Assembly (NCBI RefSeq): GCF_018613605.1
Contig: NZ_JAGGPU010000026.1
Coordinates: 1-64,000 of the forward strand
Source: Pedobacter sp. ISL-64
Lineage (GTDB): Bacteria; Bacteroidota; Bacteroidia; Sphingobacteriales; Sphingobacteriaceae
Direction of reading: 5' to 3'
Length of the DNA: 64,000 nucleotides
Positions 42,110 to 46,691 of this stretch are shown here, in pieces. A program made the translations under genes and the position numbers. Within the stretch, counting starts at the first letter, position 1. Every line of letters begins with the position of its first letter. The notes under the pieces were generated by a model. It was given only the letters and a program-made list of their open reading frames with translations. It searched no databases and had not been told where the DNA came from.

Positions 42110-42313
42110 TTAAATGCTGATGTCCCTTTCCTCTTCAACACTTAATACGCCTTCAATTTTTTTGATATCTGCAATTTTATGATTGCCCGGAACAATTACG
42201 ATTACACCAATTGAATCTAAAGCTTCTGTATCTTTGATACCTATTTTGCTTAACTCGTTAACTACTTGGTTTATAGTCCCATCCTGTACAGATATTAACC
42301 ATTTTGTTTTCAT
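42110..42313 (-). CDS. Free-standing propeptide/I9-like small protein
   Basis: 67 residues. The pattern beta (KWLISVQD), helix (TINQVVNELSKIG), beta (EALDSIGVIVIV), helix (KIADIKKIEG) and last beta (VLSVEEERDISI) matches the subtilisin-propeptide/inhibitor I9 fold; the final VEEERDISI resembles the usual VExDxxV end. Canonical I9 domains are fused to the protease; here the protein is separate and starts within the protease stop codon (ATGA overlap, 42310-42313). Likely role: inhibitor or folding chaperone of the adjacent protease (inference). Not a propeptide of the protease itself, which has its own N-terminal domain. No signal peptide. Confidence 0.65.
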   Translation of the reverse strand: MKTKWLISVQDGTINQVVNELSKIGIKDTEALDSIGVIVIVPGNHKIADIKKIEGVLSVEEERDISI

Positions 42314-43731
42314 CTTATAATTTTTTCAATTGGGCCAATTGGATCGATAGGGAATTTCGGATTAACTAAAATAGGGAATTTATCAATTGGGAATCTATCA
42401 ATTGGGTATTTTATCAATCTTGTTTTTGTAGGCGCTTGTACTAATCCTGCACCTACATCTCTGCCTGGTAAAGGTAAAGTTTTCGCGGTTGAGGTTAATT
42501 TTCTCCACAAATTAATCCCTCTCAGACCCGATGCCTGTGCCCATAGTGCGGCAATACCGGCAACATGTGGGGTAGCCATACTGGTTCCATTCCAGCTTGC
42601 GTATTTAGTCGGTAATTTTGTAGAAGAGTACACATTAACACCCGGAGCAGCAATATCTACAGCACCATAAGTTGGGTAAAGGCCTCCGTTAGAAAAAGCC
42701 GCTACGTTCATATTTACATCTACAGCACCTACAGCCATTATTGATGGACAATTTGCAGGGTGCATTACCTGTCTAACAGTGCCTGGTCGTGCCGAATCAT
42801 TTCCTGCAGCAGCAATAATTAAAGTACCTTGTGCTAAAGCACGGGCGGCAGCGGTTTCAAAAACAGCAGAATAGCCTGCTCCGGTTACAAAGCCTCTTAA
42901 CGACATGCTTACCACATCACAACGGTTGGCAATTGCCCAGTTAATGCCGGCAAGAATGCCTCCATCTCCACCAGAACCACCATTGCTTAAAACTTTTCCG
43001 ATATAAATACTGGCGGCATAAGCAATACCGTATCTTTCTGTTGCCGATGGCGAACTAGAAGGACCACAGGCAGTACCAGTACAGTGTGTACCGTGGCCAT
43101 GTCCATCCTGTGTACTTTCTCCGCTAATAAAACTTTGATGAACAACAGGACGGCCAGCAAAATCAGGGTGGCTAAAGTCGAAACCAGTATCCAATATGGC
43201 TACTTTAATGCCTGCACCATTGTAAGGGTTGTACCTTAAAAAGCTGGTTGGCACAACATTGGTTGCTTTTAATCCCCAGGTAGCACCAACAGATTCTACT
43301 TCCGATTCTTGCTCTTCATAATTGTAATCTTCTGTTTCGCTTCCAACCAACACGTTGGTCATTTGGTTTACCGCGTCTCTGTAACCCTCTACATAATTTT
43401 GGGTACTTTCATCCAGCATTCCAATAGCATAAACTACTCTTTCCTTTTCTACAATCATTTCACTTTCGCCTAAACTGCTGATTGAATTTTCAATTTTCGG
43501 TTTTTCGTTTACGATAGCAATTCCCAGCTTGTCTAGTATGATACCATCAGTTTTAGCGAGGTCTTTATCTGTGAAAAATTCGTTTTCAAATTCTAAAGAG
43601 CTTTTTAGGTTCAGTCCGCTAATAGAATTGATCTGGTTAATAGAATCGGAGGTGTTGGATCCTTCTGGTAGTAGTACAAGGTATCTTCCTGTGTACTCTA
43701 CTTTTTCTTCTTTTTTCAAGGTTTTTGACAT
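42310..43731 (-). CDS. Subtilisin-like (S8) serine protease without signal peptide
   Basis: 473 residues. The catalytic triad is complete: D181 (AILDTGFDFSHPDF), H213 (GHGHGTHCTG), S384 (NGTSMATPH), with N311 in AAAGNDS as oxyanion residue. The first 110 residues resemble a propeptide (GRYLVLLPEG, IAIVNEKPKIEN, EMIVEKERVVYAIG). There is no N-terminal signal peptide, so it is likely cytoplasmic or exported by an unusual route. The C-terminus (about 438-473) ends with repeats of YPID/FPID and a Pro-rich tail. It is coupled to the small I9-like gene downstream and diverges from the operon at 43997. Confidence 0.9.
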   Translation of the reverse strand: MSKTLKKEEKVEYTGRYLVLLPEGSNTSDSINQINSISGLNLKSSLEFENEFFTDKDLAKTDGIILDKLGIAIVNEKPKIENSISSLGESEMIVEKERVVYAIGMLDESTQNYVEGYRDAVNQMTNVLVGSETEDYNYEEQESEVESVGATWGLKATNVVPTSFLRYNPYNGAGIKVAILDTGFDFSHPDFAGRPVVHQSFISGESTQDGHGHGTHCTGTACGPSSSPSATERYGIAYAASIYIGKVLSNGGSGGDGGILAGINWAIANRCDVVSMSLRGFVTGAGYSAVFETAAARALAQGTLIIAAAGNDSARPGTVRQVMHPANCPSIMAVGAVDVNMNVAAFSNGGLYPTYGAVDIAAPGVNVYSSTKLPTKYASWNGTSMATPHVAGIAALWAQASGLRGINLWRKLTSTAKTLPLPGRDVGAGLVQAPTKTRLIKYPIDRFPIDKFPILVNPKFPIDPIGPIEKIIR

Positions 43732-43996: not shown

Positions 43997-44638
43997 ATGG
44001 AAATGCAACATCTACCTAGCTATGCTATCGTATTTTTATGTGGAGCACTAGTATGTTATCTGTTACTAAAACTAATCGATCTTATGAAAACAAATGAAAG
44101 GCGGGGACGTCCAAATACCATGGATCCGGCAATAATCCAACAAATGGTAGATAATTACCGCAACAACCATTTAGCAGCAATTAATAAAGTATTGGGAATA
44201 AACGATGCCCATTCTGTTTCTTTCGGTTTAAAAACCCTAAAAAAATTCATCGCTGATATCGAATTTTTTAGTAAAAAAGCAGACCCGCGCATTGCTGATG
44301 GTGCACTGGGTATCCGTTTCTATTACGCTGCTTATCCAAAAGACAACGAATGGAATGGTTTTGAGGATGAGAAATCGATAGGAAAAAATTATGCCCAAAA
44401 ACATACACTTGTTATGATTCCTACTTTAAAGAAAAAGAGCAGCGATGGAAGCTACCAGGATTACGACTTTAACCCTTTAGACCGTGCTACTTTCCCTCTA
44501 AAAGAAAGAGAAAAAGAGCAACCCATTACCTTAATGGCCATAAGTTCGGATAGTAGTGACAGTCAATCGCGTGAGGTAATGGCTCAAAACCATGGACAAA
44601 CCATTCCACCAGCCGATTCAGCAATAGAAACCTATTAA
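43997..44638 (+). CDS. Membrane-anchored protein of unknown family
   Basis: 213 residues. One N-terminal TM helix (about 9-28, IVFLCGALVCYLLLKLIDLM), then a soluble domain with the blocks DAHSVSFGLKTLKKFIADIE, ADGALGIRFYYAAYPKD and KHTLVMIPTLKKK. I have a sense that this pattern recurs in Bacteroidota but I cannot name the family. The C-terminal tail is Ser/Gln-rich, low complexity. First gene of the four-gene signalling operon. Confidence 0.75.
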   Translation: MEMQHLPSYAIVFLCGALVCYLLLKLIDLMKTNERRGRPNTMDPAIIQQMVDNYRNNHLAAINKVLGINDAHSVSFGLKTLKKFIADIEFFSKKADPRIADGALGIRFYYAAYPKDNEWNGFEDEKSIGKNYAQKHTLVMIPTLKKKSSDGSYQDYDFNPLDRATFPLKEREKEQPITLMAISSDSSDSQSREVMAQNHGQTIPPADSAIETY

Positions 44639-44650
44639 TATCTTGATGAA

Positions 44651-45298
44651 ATGAACGACTTCCAGAAATTTTTGAGCGACATTTTTCTCTGGATTGAAGG
44701 AGGGGCTGCATTGATTGCGTTTTGCTACTTTAAACGGTTAAAGGGACAACATTGGAGGTATTTTATCTATTATCTGACCACTATTTTTATCTGTGAAGTA
44801 ATTGGGAAATGGGGAGGGGAATATATCAGCTTTTCAAAAACTAAATATTATAACTATATCGTTATCCCTTTCCAGTTTATCTTTTTTTACTGGCTTTATG
44901 CCGTAAAATCATTTAAGGATAAAAGATTATTTTGGATACTCTCTTTGTTGTACATAATTTCATTTATACTCAGCAGATTATTCTTTAAGGAAAGTAAAGT
45001 ATATTTTTCCTTTAGCTATACTTTTGGATGTTTACTCCTAATGTTTTTGGTTATCAAAGAATATTATAATCAGGTAAACTCAATCAACATTCTCAACTTT
45101 CAAGAAAATAGAATGTTTTATATTAATTTAGGCGTAACCTTATTCTATATCGGTACATTACCTTTTCTTACGTTTTATTCGTTATTGCGGGCTTATATCC
45201 AGATCTGGAATATTTATTTCGATTATTTTCTGGTATCAGGGATTGTAATGTATGTATTATTCTCAATTTCATTTATATGGGGAAAACAGAGCTCTTAA
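44651..45298 (+). CDS. Polytopic membrane protein of unknown family
   Basis: 215 residues with about six to seven TM helices and very Phe/Tyr-rich loops. No recognisable domain. It ends 22 bp inside the histidine kinase gene (overlap 45277-45298), so it is translationally coupled to the kinase and may be its sensory partner (inference). 12 bp downstream of the first gene. Confidence 0.75.
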   Translation: MNDFQKFLSDIFLWIEGGAALIAFCYFKRLKGQHWRYFIYYLTTIFICEVIGKWGGEYISFSKTKYYNYIVIPFQFIFFYWLYAVKSFKDKRLFWILSLLYIISFILSRLFFKESKVYFSFSYTFGCLLLMFLVIKEYYNQVNSINILNFQENRMFYINLGVTLFYIGTLPFLTFYSLLRAYIQIWNIYFDYFLVSGIVMYVLFSISFIWGKQSS

Positions 45299-46062
45299 TT
45301 ACCATCATCCTTTTTAACCTGTTTTTCGTGCTCTTTGTAGTCGCCATTATGGTCTATATTAAAAAATATAAAGAACGGAAAAGGGAATATCTGAATGAAA
45401 TCAAAATCACCAACGAAATACATCAGAAGGAACTTTTAACTACCCAGTTAGAAATACAACAGGCCACCATGCAGCAGATTGGCCGTGAATTACACGATAA
45501 TATCGGGCAAAAATTAACATTGGTGAGTCTTTATACCCAGCAATTGGTGCACGAAAACAAAGTGCCTCAAGCGAGTAAAAGAATTGAGCAGATTTATCAG
45601 ATCATTAATTCATCGTTGCAGGACTTAAGGAGTTTGTCGAAAAACTTAACGAACGATAATATAAGTGAAAATGAAATTGTAACTTTAATACAGGAAGAAG
45701 TGAACAACCTCAATGCTTTGAAAAAATGTAAGGTAACCTTTCAACACAATTTCGAAAGTATAGATCTGGAGTTTGTAAAAAAGAATGTATTATTAAGGAT
45801 AACACAAGAATTTCTTCAAAATAGCTTAAAACATGCACATTGCAGCAATATCAAAATTCAGTTAAACTCTTCTCCTGAAGTTTTTTTAGCATTAAAAATA
45901 CAGGATGATGGTGTAGGCTTTGATTATGGTAAAATCACTTCTGATGGTATAGGATTAAAAAACATGAAAAAAAGAGCCGAAATTATCGGTGGACAATTTA
46001 ATTTAGAAAGCAAATCCGATTTAGGCACTACACTTACTATTATTTTAAATGGCCCGGCATGA
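45277..46062 (+). CDS. NarX-type sensor histidine kinase (HisKA_3)
   Basis: 261 residues. Short: one N-terminal TM helix (about 6-28), coiled-coil linker, HisKA_3 with H73 in GRELHDNIGQKLTL, then HATPase_c with the N box (LRITQEFLQNSLKHAHCSNI), G1 box DDGVGFD and G2 box DGIGLKNMKKRAE. No extracytoplasmic sensor of its own, so sensing probably relies on the coupled polytopic protein. Overlaps the regulator gene by 4 nt (ATGA). Confidence 0.93.
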   Translation: MGKTELLITIILFNLFFVLFVVAIMVYIKKYKERKREYLNEIKITNEIHQKELLTTQLEIQQATMQQIGRELHDNIGQKLTLVSLYTQQLVHENKVPQASKRIEQIYQIINSSLQDLRSLSKNLTNDNISENEIVTLIQEEVNNLNALKKCKVTFQHNFESIDLEFVKKNVLLRITQEFLQNSLKHAHCSNIKIQLNSSPEVFLALKIQDDGVGFDYGKITSDGIGLKNMKKRAEIIGGQFNLESKSDLGTTLTIILNGPA

Positions 46063-46691
46063 AAAAAACTATAGTTATTGTTGATGATCATATCCTGATT
46101 GCAAAAGCACTTCAGGGCATTATAGATAATTTTGCAGCCTTTGAGGTGATGTATGTTTGTGAAAACGGGAAAGAGTTGATTAAAAACTTCGAAAACAGCA
46201 ATAAAATCCCCGATATTTTACTTTTAGATATTAGCATGCCCATTATGGATGGTTTTGAAACCGTAACCTGGGTAACTGCACACCATCCAGAGGTAAAAGT
46301 AATGGCCCTGAGTATGCAGGGTGAAGAAAAAAGTGTGATTAAAATGGTTAGCAACGGTGCTAAAGGCTACCTCTTAAAAAATGCGCATCCGGTAGAACTC
46401 GAAAACGCGCTTACAAAGTTGAATATCAACGGATTTTTTTATCCTGATTGGGCATCAAAAATCATTTTCTCCAGCCTGAATAAAACCAAAGATGCTGAGA
46501 TCAAAATTTCAGATCGGGAGAAAGAGTTCTTAAAATATACTGTTACTGAGCTTAATTATAAGGAAATAGCCGATAAAATGTTCTGTAGCCCACGTACAGT
46601 TGAAAGCTATCGCGATCAGTTATGTGAAAAACTCGAACTTAAAACAAGGGTAGGTTTGGCTGTTTTTGCCATCAAAAATGGCTTTGCGTAA
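46059..46691 (+). CDS. NarL/LuxR-family response regulator
   Basis: 210 residues. Receiver with D57 (PDILLLDISMP), acidic pair VDDH and K in LLKNAHP; LuxR-type HTH at the C-terminus (SDREKEFLKYTVTELNYKEI, KMFCSPRTVESYRDQLCEKL). Paired with the kinase by a 4-nt overlap. Last gene of the operon. Target genes are not apparent; the divergent protease operon next to it is a candidate (inference only). Confidence 0.94.
   Translation: MKKTIVIVDDHILIAKALQGIIDNFAAFEVMYVCENGKELIKNFENSNKIPDILLLDISMPIMDGFETVTWVTAHHPEVKVMALSMQGEEKSVIKMVSNGAKGYLLKNAHPVELENALTKLNINGFFYPDWASKIIFSSLNKTKDAEIKISDREKEFLKYTVTELNYKEIADKMFCSPRTVESYRDQLCEKLELKTRVGLAVFAIKNGFA

Follow-up and report, generated by a model that had tools for sequence, protein, structure and literature searches.

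A subtilisin-like protease and a small propeptide-like partner encoded by overlapping genes in Pedobacter may form a PopC/PopD-like operon

The PopC protease of Myxococcus xanthus (UniProt Q1DFT5) is described, in the passages cited here, as a 50.8-kDa subtilisin that lacks a signal peptide and in which no N-terminal domain is recognised. It is found in the periplasm and then secreted despite that lack, and in fed cells it is complexed and restrained by PopD (MXAN_0207) (PMC6434023). The stringent response leads to degradation of PopD (PMC6434023; PMC4320627), for which the protease FtsH-D has been named (PMC4320627), and in a subtilase tree PopC forms a separate subgroup (PMC9549277). As far as the cited passages go, these accounts give PopD no structural mechanism and do not describe it as a prodomain mimic. 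Here we describe a locus of Pedobacter sp. ISL-64 (assembly GCF_018613605.1, contig NZ_JAGGPU010000026.1, positions 1 to 64,000; hereafter the window) at which the gene for an S8 subtilisin-like protease overlaps the gene for a 67-residue protein that seems to be its propeptide-like partner, as judged from sequence and predicted structure. We assign this role because of the small protein's predicted fold, its profile match to the proteases' own prodomains, its putative helix-capping acidic residues, its C-terminal tail and its constant adjacency to the protease.

Several other described systems share part of this arrangement. In Aeromonas sobria the gene for the S8 protease ASP is likewise followed by a partner gene, ORF2, whose product acts as an external chaperone and inhibits as well (PMC5638518); according to the passages cited, ASP is extracellular and propeptide-deficient, whereas the Pedobacter protease carries a prodomain of its own, and its N-terminus is not signal-like. 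Isp1 of Bacillus subtilis is an intracellular subtilisin with a protein inhibitor, IPI (PMC3901451), which differs from the Pedobacter protein in having an immunoglobulin-like fold. Stand-alone propeptide-like inhibitors include Pleurotus peptidase A inhibitor 1, yeast peptidase B inhibitor, Arabidopsis SPI-1, TgMIC5 and Plasmodium SUB1-ProM, whose gene adjoins subtilase genes and whose product inhibits SUB1 (PMC6993865). The Pedobacter protein resembles these in being a small separate gene product with a propeptide fold, here a predicted one; those named in the cited part of PMC6993865 are eukaryotic, whereas the Pedobacter pair is a presumed bacterial operon in which protease and partner are matched one to one. 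For a bacterial stand-alone prodomain beside a subtilisin, literature titles and abstract openings, among which subscription papers are mostly uncovered, show only PopC/PopD, ASP/ORF2 and Isp1/IPI.

The protease gene (P0002) lies at 42310-43731 on the minus strand, as do all features given below, and encodes 473 amino acids (50.3 kDa). Its stop codon and the start codon of the partner gene (P0001, 42110-42313, taken from the open reading frame list and modelled with AlphaFold2) share a 4-nt ATGA overlap (42310-42313), so that the two starts are 1418 nt apart. PF00082 (E=6.7e-44, residues 172-400) is the sole Pfam domain of the protease, which matches subtilisin Carlsberg at E=1.4e-43. Its catalytic domain (residues ~151-436; 42424-43281) contains the catalytic triad D181/H213/S384 and the oxyanion residue N311. 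Judged by hydropathy, no stretch at the N-terminus is hydrophobic enough to resemble a signal peptide (maximum 19-residue Kyte-Doolittle mean of 0.1 in the first 40 averaging windows). An earlier note on this DNA had reported both genes, their overlap, a full triad, a missing signal peptide and a propeptide-like N-terminal region, and all of these descriptions hold. The cytoplasmic location that the note proposed would not follow from the missing signal peptide by itself, since PopC, which also lacks one, occurs in the periplasm and is then secreted (PMC6434023).

The N-terminal region was assigned from a structural model of moderate confidence (mean pLDDT 69.4, with residues 106-149 and 437-473 below 50). 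The ten best VIA matches of this model are all subtilisin pro-forms, aligned from residue 15, and include pro-subtilisin E (Z 40.7, 3.0 Å over 331 residues), ProN-Tk-SP and pro-Tk-subtilisin; mature subtilisins rank after them, within 1 Z of ranks 3-10. Because the top matches are pro-forms aligned from this point, residues ~13-103 (43423-43695), which end in VEKERVVYAI and hold no Pfam domain, are read as a prodomain in cis, and in the model the protease thus carries its own N-terminal prodomain. Several cis prodomains of the family end in VYAI, VYAM or VYAL, and others do not. Between prodomain and catalytic domain lies a linker of low-confidence modelled helices (residues ~104-150; 43282-43422) with a YxxGYRDAVN-type motif, a form of which is found in several, though not all, relatives from other phyla. 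The protein ends in a proline-rich tail with PIDRF/PIDKF repeats (residues 437-473; 42313-42423). The length of the tail varies in the genus, and the whole protein ranges from 463 to 483 residues among the 19 close genus members; the only aligned relative from outside the genus with a similar tail is that of Rhizobium sp. WL3.

The AlphaFold2 model of the 67-residue protein (mean pLDDT 84.7) has the order E-H-E-E-H-E, in agreement with the beta-alpha-beta-beta-alpha-beta pattern read earlier from the letters. Among the Foldseek matches listed, the highest query TM-score belongs to the Tk-subtilisin propeptide (0.76, 2.1 Å), and none of those matches reaches E 0.001. In VIA the best subtilase propeptides score Z 8.1-8.3 at 1.8-2.6 Å, and residues 2-63 of a Csp chain score Z 8.3 at 1.8 Å over 61 residues. 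A search of the PDB with the small family returned 33 matches in total, in which three designed proteins come first and are followed by subtilase propeptides (9rk9, 8c4x and Tk-subtilisin, E 0.06-0.41); the S8 prodomain profile, searched in the same way, had no match at E below 0.1. The modelled fold is a common one and by itself cannot tell a propeptide from NapD or a RAM module.

A more specific relation appears when the small family is compared with the prodomains of its own proteases. With hhalign, the profile of 22 divergent small proteins aligns to the cis-prodomain profile over 67 columns with a probability of 47.7 (P=0.00019); in the control run the same comparison scored 28.2, against 13.8 for the best of 200 column shuffles and 11.7 for the reversed profile. 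Acidic residues at columns 60 and 62 top the 22-member alignment, with 16/22 and 19/22 members, respectively, where the mean over 68 columns is 0.16. In the window protein these columns fall in the E60-E61-E62 motif (42128-42136), which by hand alignment takes the place of Glu69 and Asp71 of the BPN' propeptide, residues described as capping subtilisin helices (PMC6993865). The C-terminal tail, DISI (42113-42124), would lie in the active-site cleft if propeptide geometry holds. The distance from E60 to the C-terminus is 8-9 residues in 12/22 members, 10-11 in two and 16-17 in eight, and six of the eight long-tailed members have a proline at most two residues past position 8; in 18/22 the chain therefore either ends near the propeptide end or continues into proline. 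Three Deinococcus members and the member from genome G259 end in VVAM, VKAI, VNAI and VRAF.

The earlier note had placed the small protein with I9 inhibitors. The propeptide-like character stands on fold, profile, acidic residues, tail and adjacency, and membership in Pfam I9 (PF05922) does not: the window protein has no Pfam match at all, and its best relative reaches E=0.098 and 13.8 bits against a gathering threshold of 21.2. Pfam I9 domains were likewise found in 0/61 genomes of the family and in 0/10 S8 N-termini, and for this reason the classical I9 profile discussed below was built from three propeptides only.

A small gene was found behind this S8 subfamily in 38/38 loci opened, in four phyla. 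These loci comprise 20 from the genus, five from other Bacteroidota, 12 from plasmids and one from a viral-collection contig (L076). Within the genus, the S8 gene was detected in 20/145 genomes (E<=1e-40) and the small gene stood behind it in all 20; 18 of these loci have the ATGA overlap, and the genes are 4 nt apart in G218 and 46 nt apart in G259, where the small protein has 76 residues and 31% identity. Searches with the small protein sequence itself give a strong match in 19 of the 20 S8-carrying genomes and a weak one (E=0.1) in G259. Across the phylum, seven of 395 genomes carry the S8 gene at E<=1e-70, and the five outside the genus all have a small gene of 66-79 codons behind it, the start of the one in G552 having been chosen by us within a longer frame. 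When plasmids were searched with the Methylobacterium protein, the scores of the best 40 of 166 records showed a gap: 14 score at least 202 bits and the other 26 at most 161. The 14 records gave 12 loci (Methylobacterium, Rhizobium (2), Streptomyces (2), Palleronia, Hymenobacter, Vibrio and Deinococcus (4)), two Vibrio records that duplicate the protein accessions of a third being left uncounted. All 12 have the small gene (74-105 amino acids), its spacing from the S8 gene ranging between an overlap of 4 nt and a distance of 300 nt. Position first revealed the small gene in nine plasmid loci, and the small genes of G341, G552, L076 and L160-L162 were found by profile before their inclusion in it.

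The pairing is more than chance. The small-protein profile had no match at any of 44 other S8 loci whose downstream sequence was present (42 taken from the viral collection, several of whose contigs are near-identical, and two from the same genome; a 45th, L108, ends inside its S8 gene), nor at six plasmid S8 loci scoring below the gap, which we picked without strict order and scanned for ~3.5 kb downstream. With the S8 profile, family members score at least 374 bits and the plasmid controls 211-239. By our reading, six of the ten genomes reported by the genus-based profile are chance matches, five to dipeptidase-like proteins and one to another protein. We also rejected, on the same basis, a match in G246 (E=0.0097, in a 362-residue frame), which falls in a short-chain dehydrogenase, and second weak matches in G000 and G013, which fall in a DUF2520-like protein. 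Both genes of the pair are under purifying selection: over nine species, the median ratio of nonsynonymous to synonymous substitution (dN/dS) is 0.029 for the S8 gene, 0.026 for glyS and 0.262 for the small gene, where medians omit pairs without usable dS (3/9 for p226 and 1/9 for p213). The S8 gene thus evolves as slowly as glyS, and the small gene nine times faster. Conservation, dN/dS and the pairing with S8 rule out a chance open reading frame for the small gene.

Each protease thus seems to be served by two prodomains, the first in cis and the second in trans, and the simplest reading is that the second is probably a removable trans-inhibitor, possibly a folding aid too. We consider the pair to be a PopC/PopD-like protease-inhibitor operon, with a probability of roughly 0.65. 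The protease would be made as a single chain that carries a prodomain of its own at the N-terminal end and lacks a signal peptide, and the ATGA-coupled gene would supply the stand-alone second prodomain. The small protein would dock on the face of the catalytic domain that the propeptide uses, its E-x-E/D motif capping helices there and its C-terminal residues filling the substrate cleft, leaving the protease folded and inactive. Its removal, for example by a regulated protease such as FtsH-D in M. xanthus, would release activity, and the freed protease could then attack a specific target, perhaps once it has been exported by a route that needs no signal peptide. Any common descent with PopC/PopD would be a further step.

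The likeness to PopC/PopD extends over several features. The two proteases are of similar mass (50.3 and 50.8 kDa), both have a C-terminal subtilisin domain preceded by a part without a recognised domain, and the Pedobacter protein, by hydropathy, lacks a signal-like N-terminus as PopC lacks a signal peptide. PopC retains its N-terminus. In both cases the partner gene is next to the protease gene, with a 4-nt overlap in Pedobacter, and the start-to-start distance of 1418 nt compares with 1437 nt for popC-popD (1210+227 or 1031+406 from the positions in the cited part of PMC4320627, with TSC taken as the start codon). The systems differ in that PopC serves fruiting-body signalling through cleavage of CsgA, and no such role is known for the Pedobacter pair.

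A number of points weigh against this reading. The comparison with PopC/PopD draws on published descriptions, and some myxobacterial bins are described as having PopC homologs with no PopD found (PMC11821767, in the part cited); PopC without PopD would, if true, break the constant pairing, and the small PopD gene may have been missed in those bins. With two prodomains, both would have to compete for the same site. The shuffle control leaves room for convergence on a shared fold, and the cis-prodomain alignment has 13 rows, four of them truncated by the chosen coordinates. Against the three classical propeptides the small family scores 15.95, above the maximum of 200 shuffles (13.69) and below the reversed profile (16.36); because the reversed profile scores higher, we count this as no evidence. 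The genus-based profile missed the partners of G320, G514 and G610 at E<=0.01, which were found by position. NapD is the first Foldseek match of the small protein (E=0.0093), and a RAM module and NapD reach Z 8.6 in VIA, a tie with the propeptides (8.3). In Pfam scans of the 22 members, NapD (five members, best 0.0012) outscores I9 (three members, best 0.098), as do further unrelated families.

The NapD matches raise the thought that the small protein is a NapD-like chaperone, which would bind the N-terminus or linker of the protease and control its export while leaving the active site untouched. We regard this as the least probable of the readings weighed here: NapD and propeptides have a common fold, individual Pfam scans of ten divergent members showed no NapD, and the cis-prodomain profile match, the acidic motif and the tail point to an active-site mode. 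A partner that acts mainly as an external folding chaperone in the manner of ORF2, with inhibition as a by-product and no regulated release, is unlikely as well, though the most credible of the alternatives. Propeptides act as chaperones and inhibitors together (PMC6993865), which suits it; ASP is propeptide-deficient in the description cited, and the Pedobacter protease, having its own prodomain, would have less need of a second folding helper.

The earlier note had also thought of toxin-antitoxin-like action, and one may picture an intracellular protease that is silenced by a labile inhibitor and freed on phage attack. The patchy presence of the pair (20/145 genus and 7/395 phylum genomes) would fit such a defence role, as would plasmid copies near genes for DndB (Vibrio), a zeta toxin (Rhizobium) and a TIR protein (Methylobacterium), and the PADLOC 'subtilase' model matches the protease at E=1.2e-24 in a run on the two pair proteins only. 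This match spans residues 166-397, which is the catalytic domain. The pair occupies the same chromosomal place in 18/18 close relatives, which leaves the toxin-antitoxin idea unsupported, and the S8 gene is constrained like glyS. The neighbours scanned with Pfam are glyS, a 2'-5' RNA ligase-like protein, DUF6252 and p213, the last without a family, and none of them is known to us as a defence gene. A toxin-antitoxin or defence pair is thus quite improbable, only slightly less so than the NapD-like chaperone.

The gene order glyS-small-S8-p213-p215-kinase-regulator-GDPD-ABC is identical in all 18 of these relatives; in G259 the pair lies at another genomic place. The genes p213, p215, a histidine kinase and a response regulator form a four-gene run (43997-46691) divergent from the pair. 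A functional link between this operon and the pair was considered and is weakened, since the run occurs without the pair in 7/7 distant genus loci opened; p213 is matched in 32/145 genus genomes (E<=0.001), compared with 20 for the S8 gene. In the four of 15 pair-less genomes that were inspected (G203, G221, G246 and G208), the window gene that comes next beside glyS is GDPD. In G173 and G145, for which the genus genome searches reported neither pair gene, glyS and p213 are separated by a different two-gene unit (L189:4467-5927 and L190:7265-8725) that encodes a protein of 235 or 231 residues and a collagen-like, glycine-rich protein of 243 residues. G242 (L188), where the same searches also reported neither gene, has a decayed S8 gene start at this place beside the p213 operon, at which the contig ends. 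In G320 and G610 (L157 and L159) the pair is preceded by three genes of 289, 239 and 192 codons, the latter two without a Pfam match as scanned in L063, and p213 relatives lie ~5 kb away. On the Vibrio plasmids L137, L204 and L205, genes for DndB and for a DNA cytosine methyltransferase are found near the pair.

In G552 the locus is a tandem of S8, small and second S8 genes (L065:1018-2421; also L156:8127-9530). In the second S8 protein, A, A and S replace the catalytic Asp, catalytic Ser and oxyanion Asn, respectively, and the His is kept; from its sequence it looks like a pseudoprotease. An active protease beside a pseudoprotease recalls clostridial CspA/CspB/CspC, as does the N-terminal part of a Csp chain among the closest folds to the small protein; CspA/CspB/CspC differ in being germination proteins, and we know of no stand-alone prodomain gene in Csp systems.

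More tentatively, at somewhat less than even odds, the loci may represent a class of subtilisins in at least four phyla that combine a cis prodomain with a stand-alone, removable trans-inhibitor, with PopD as a member and with the pseudoprotease of G552 as an added third partner. If the family includes PopC/PopD, the mechanism of PopD would be to act in trans as a copy of the prodomain that the protease itself carries. Regulated signal-less subtilisins would then not be just myxobacterial and would occur in Bacteroidota, Pseudomonadota, Actinomycetota and Deinococcota, and conditional signalling by such proteases would be widespread. The pair also raises a testable question, namely why one protease needs two prodomains.
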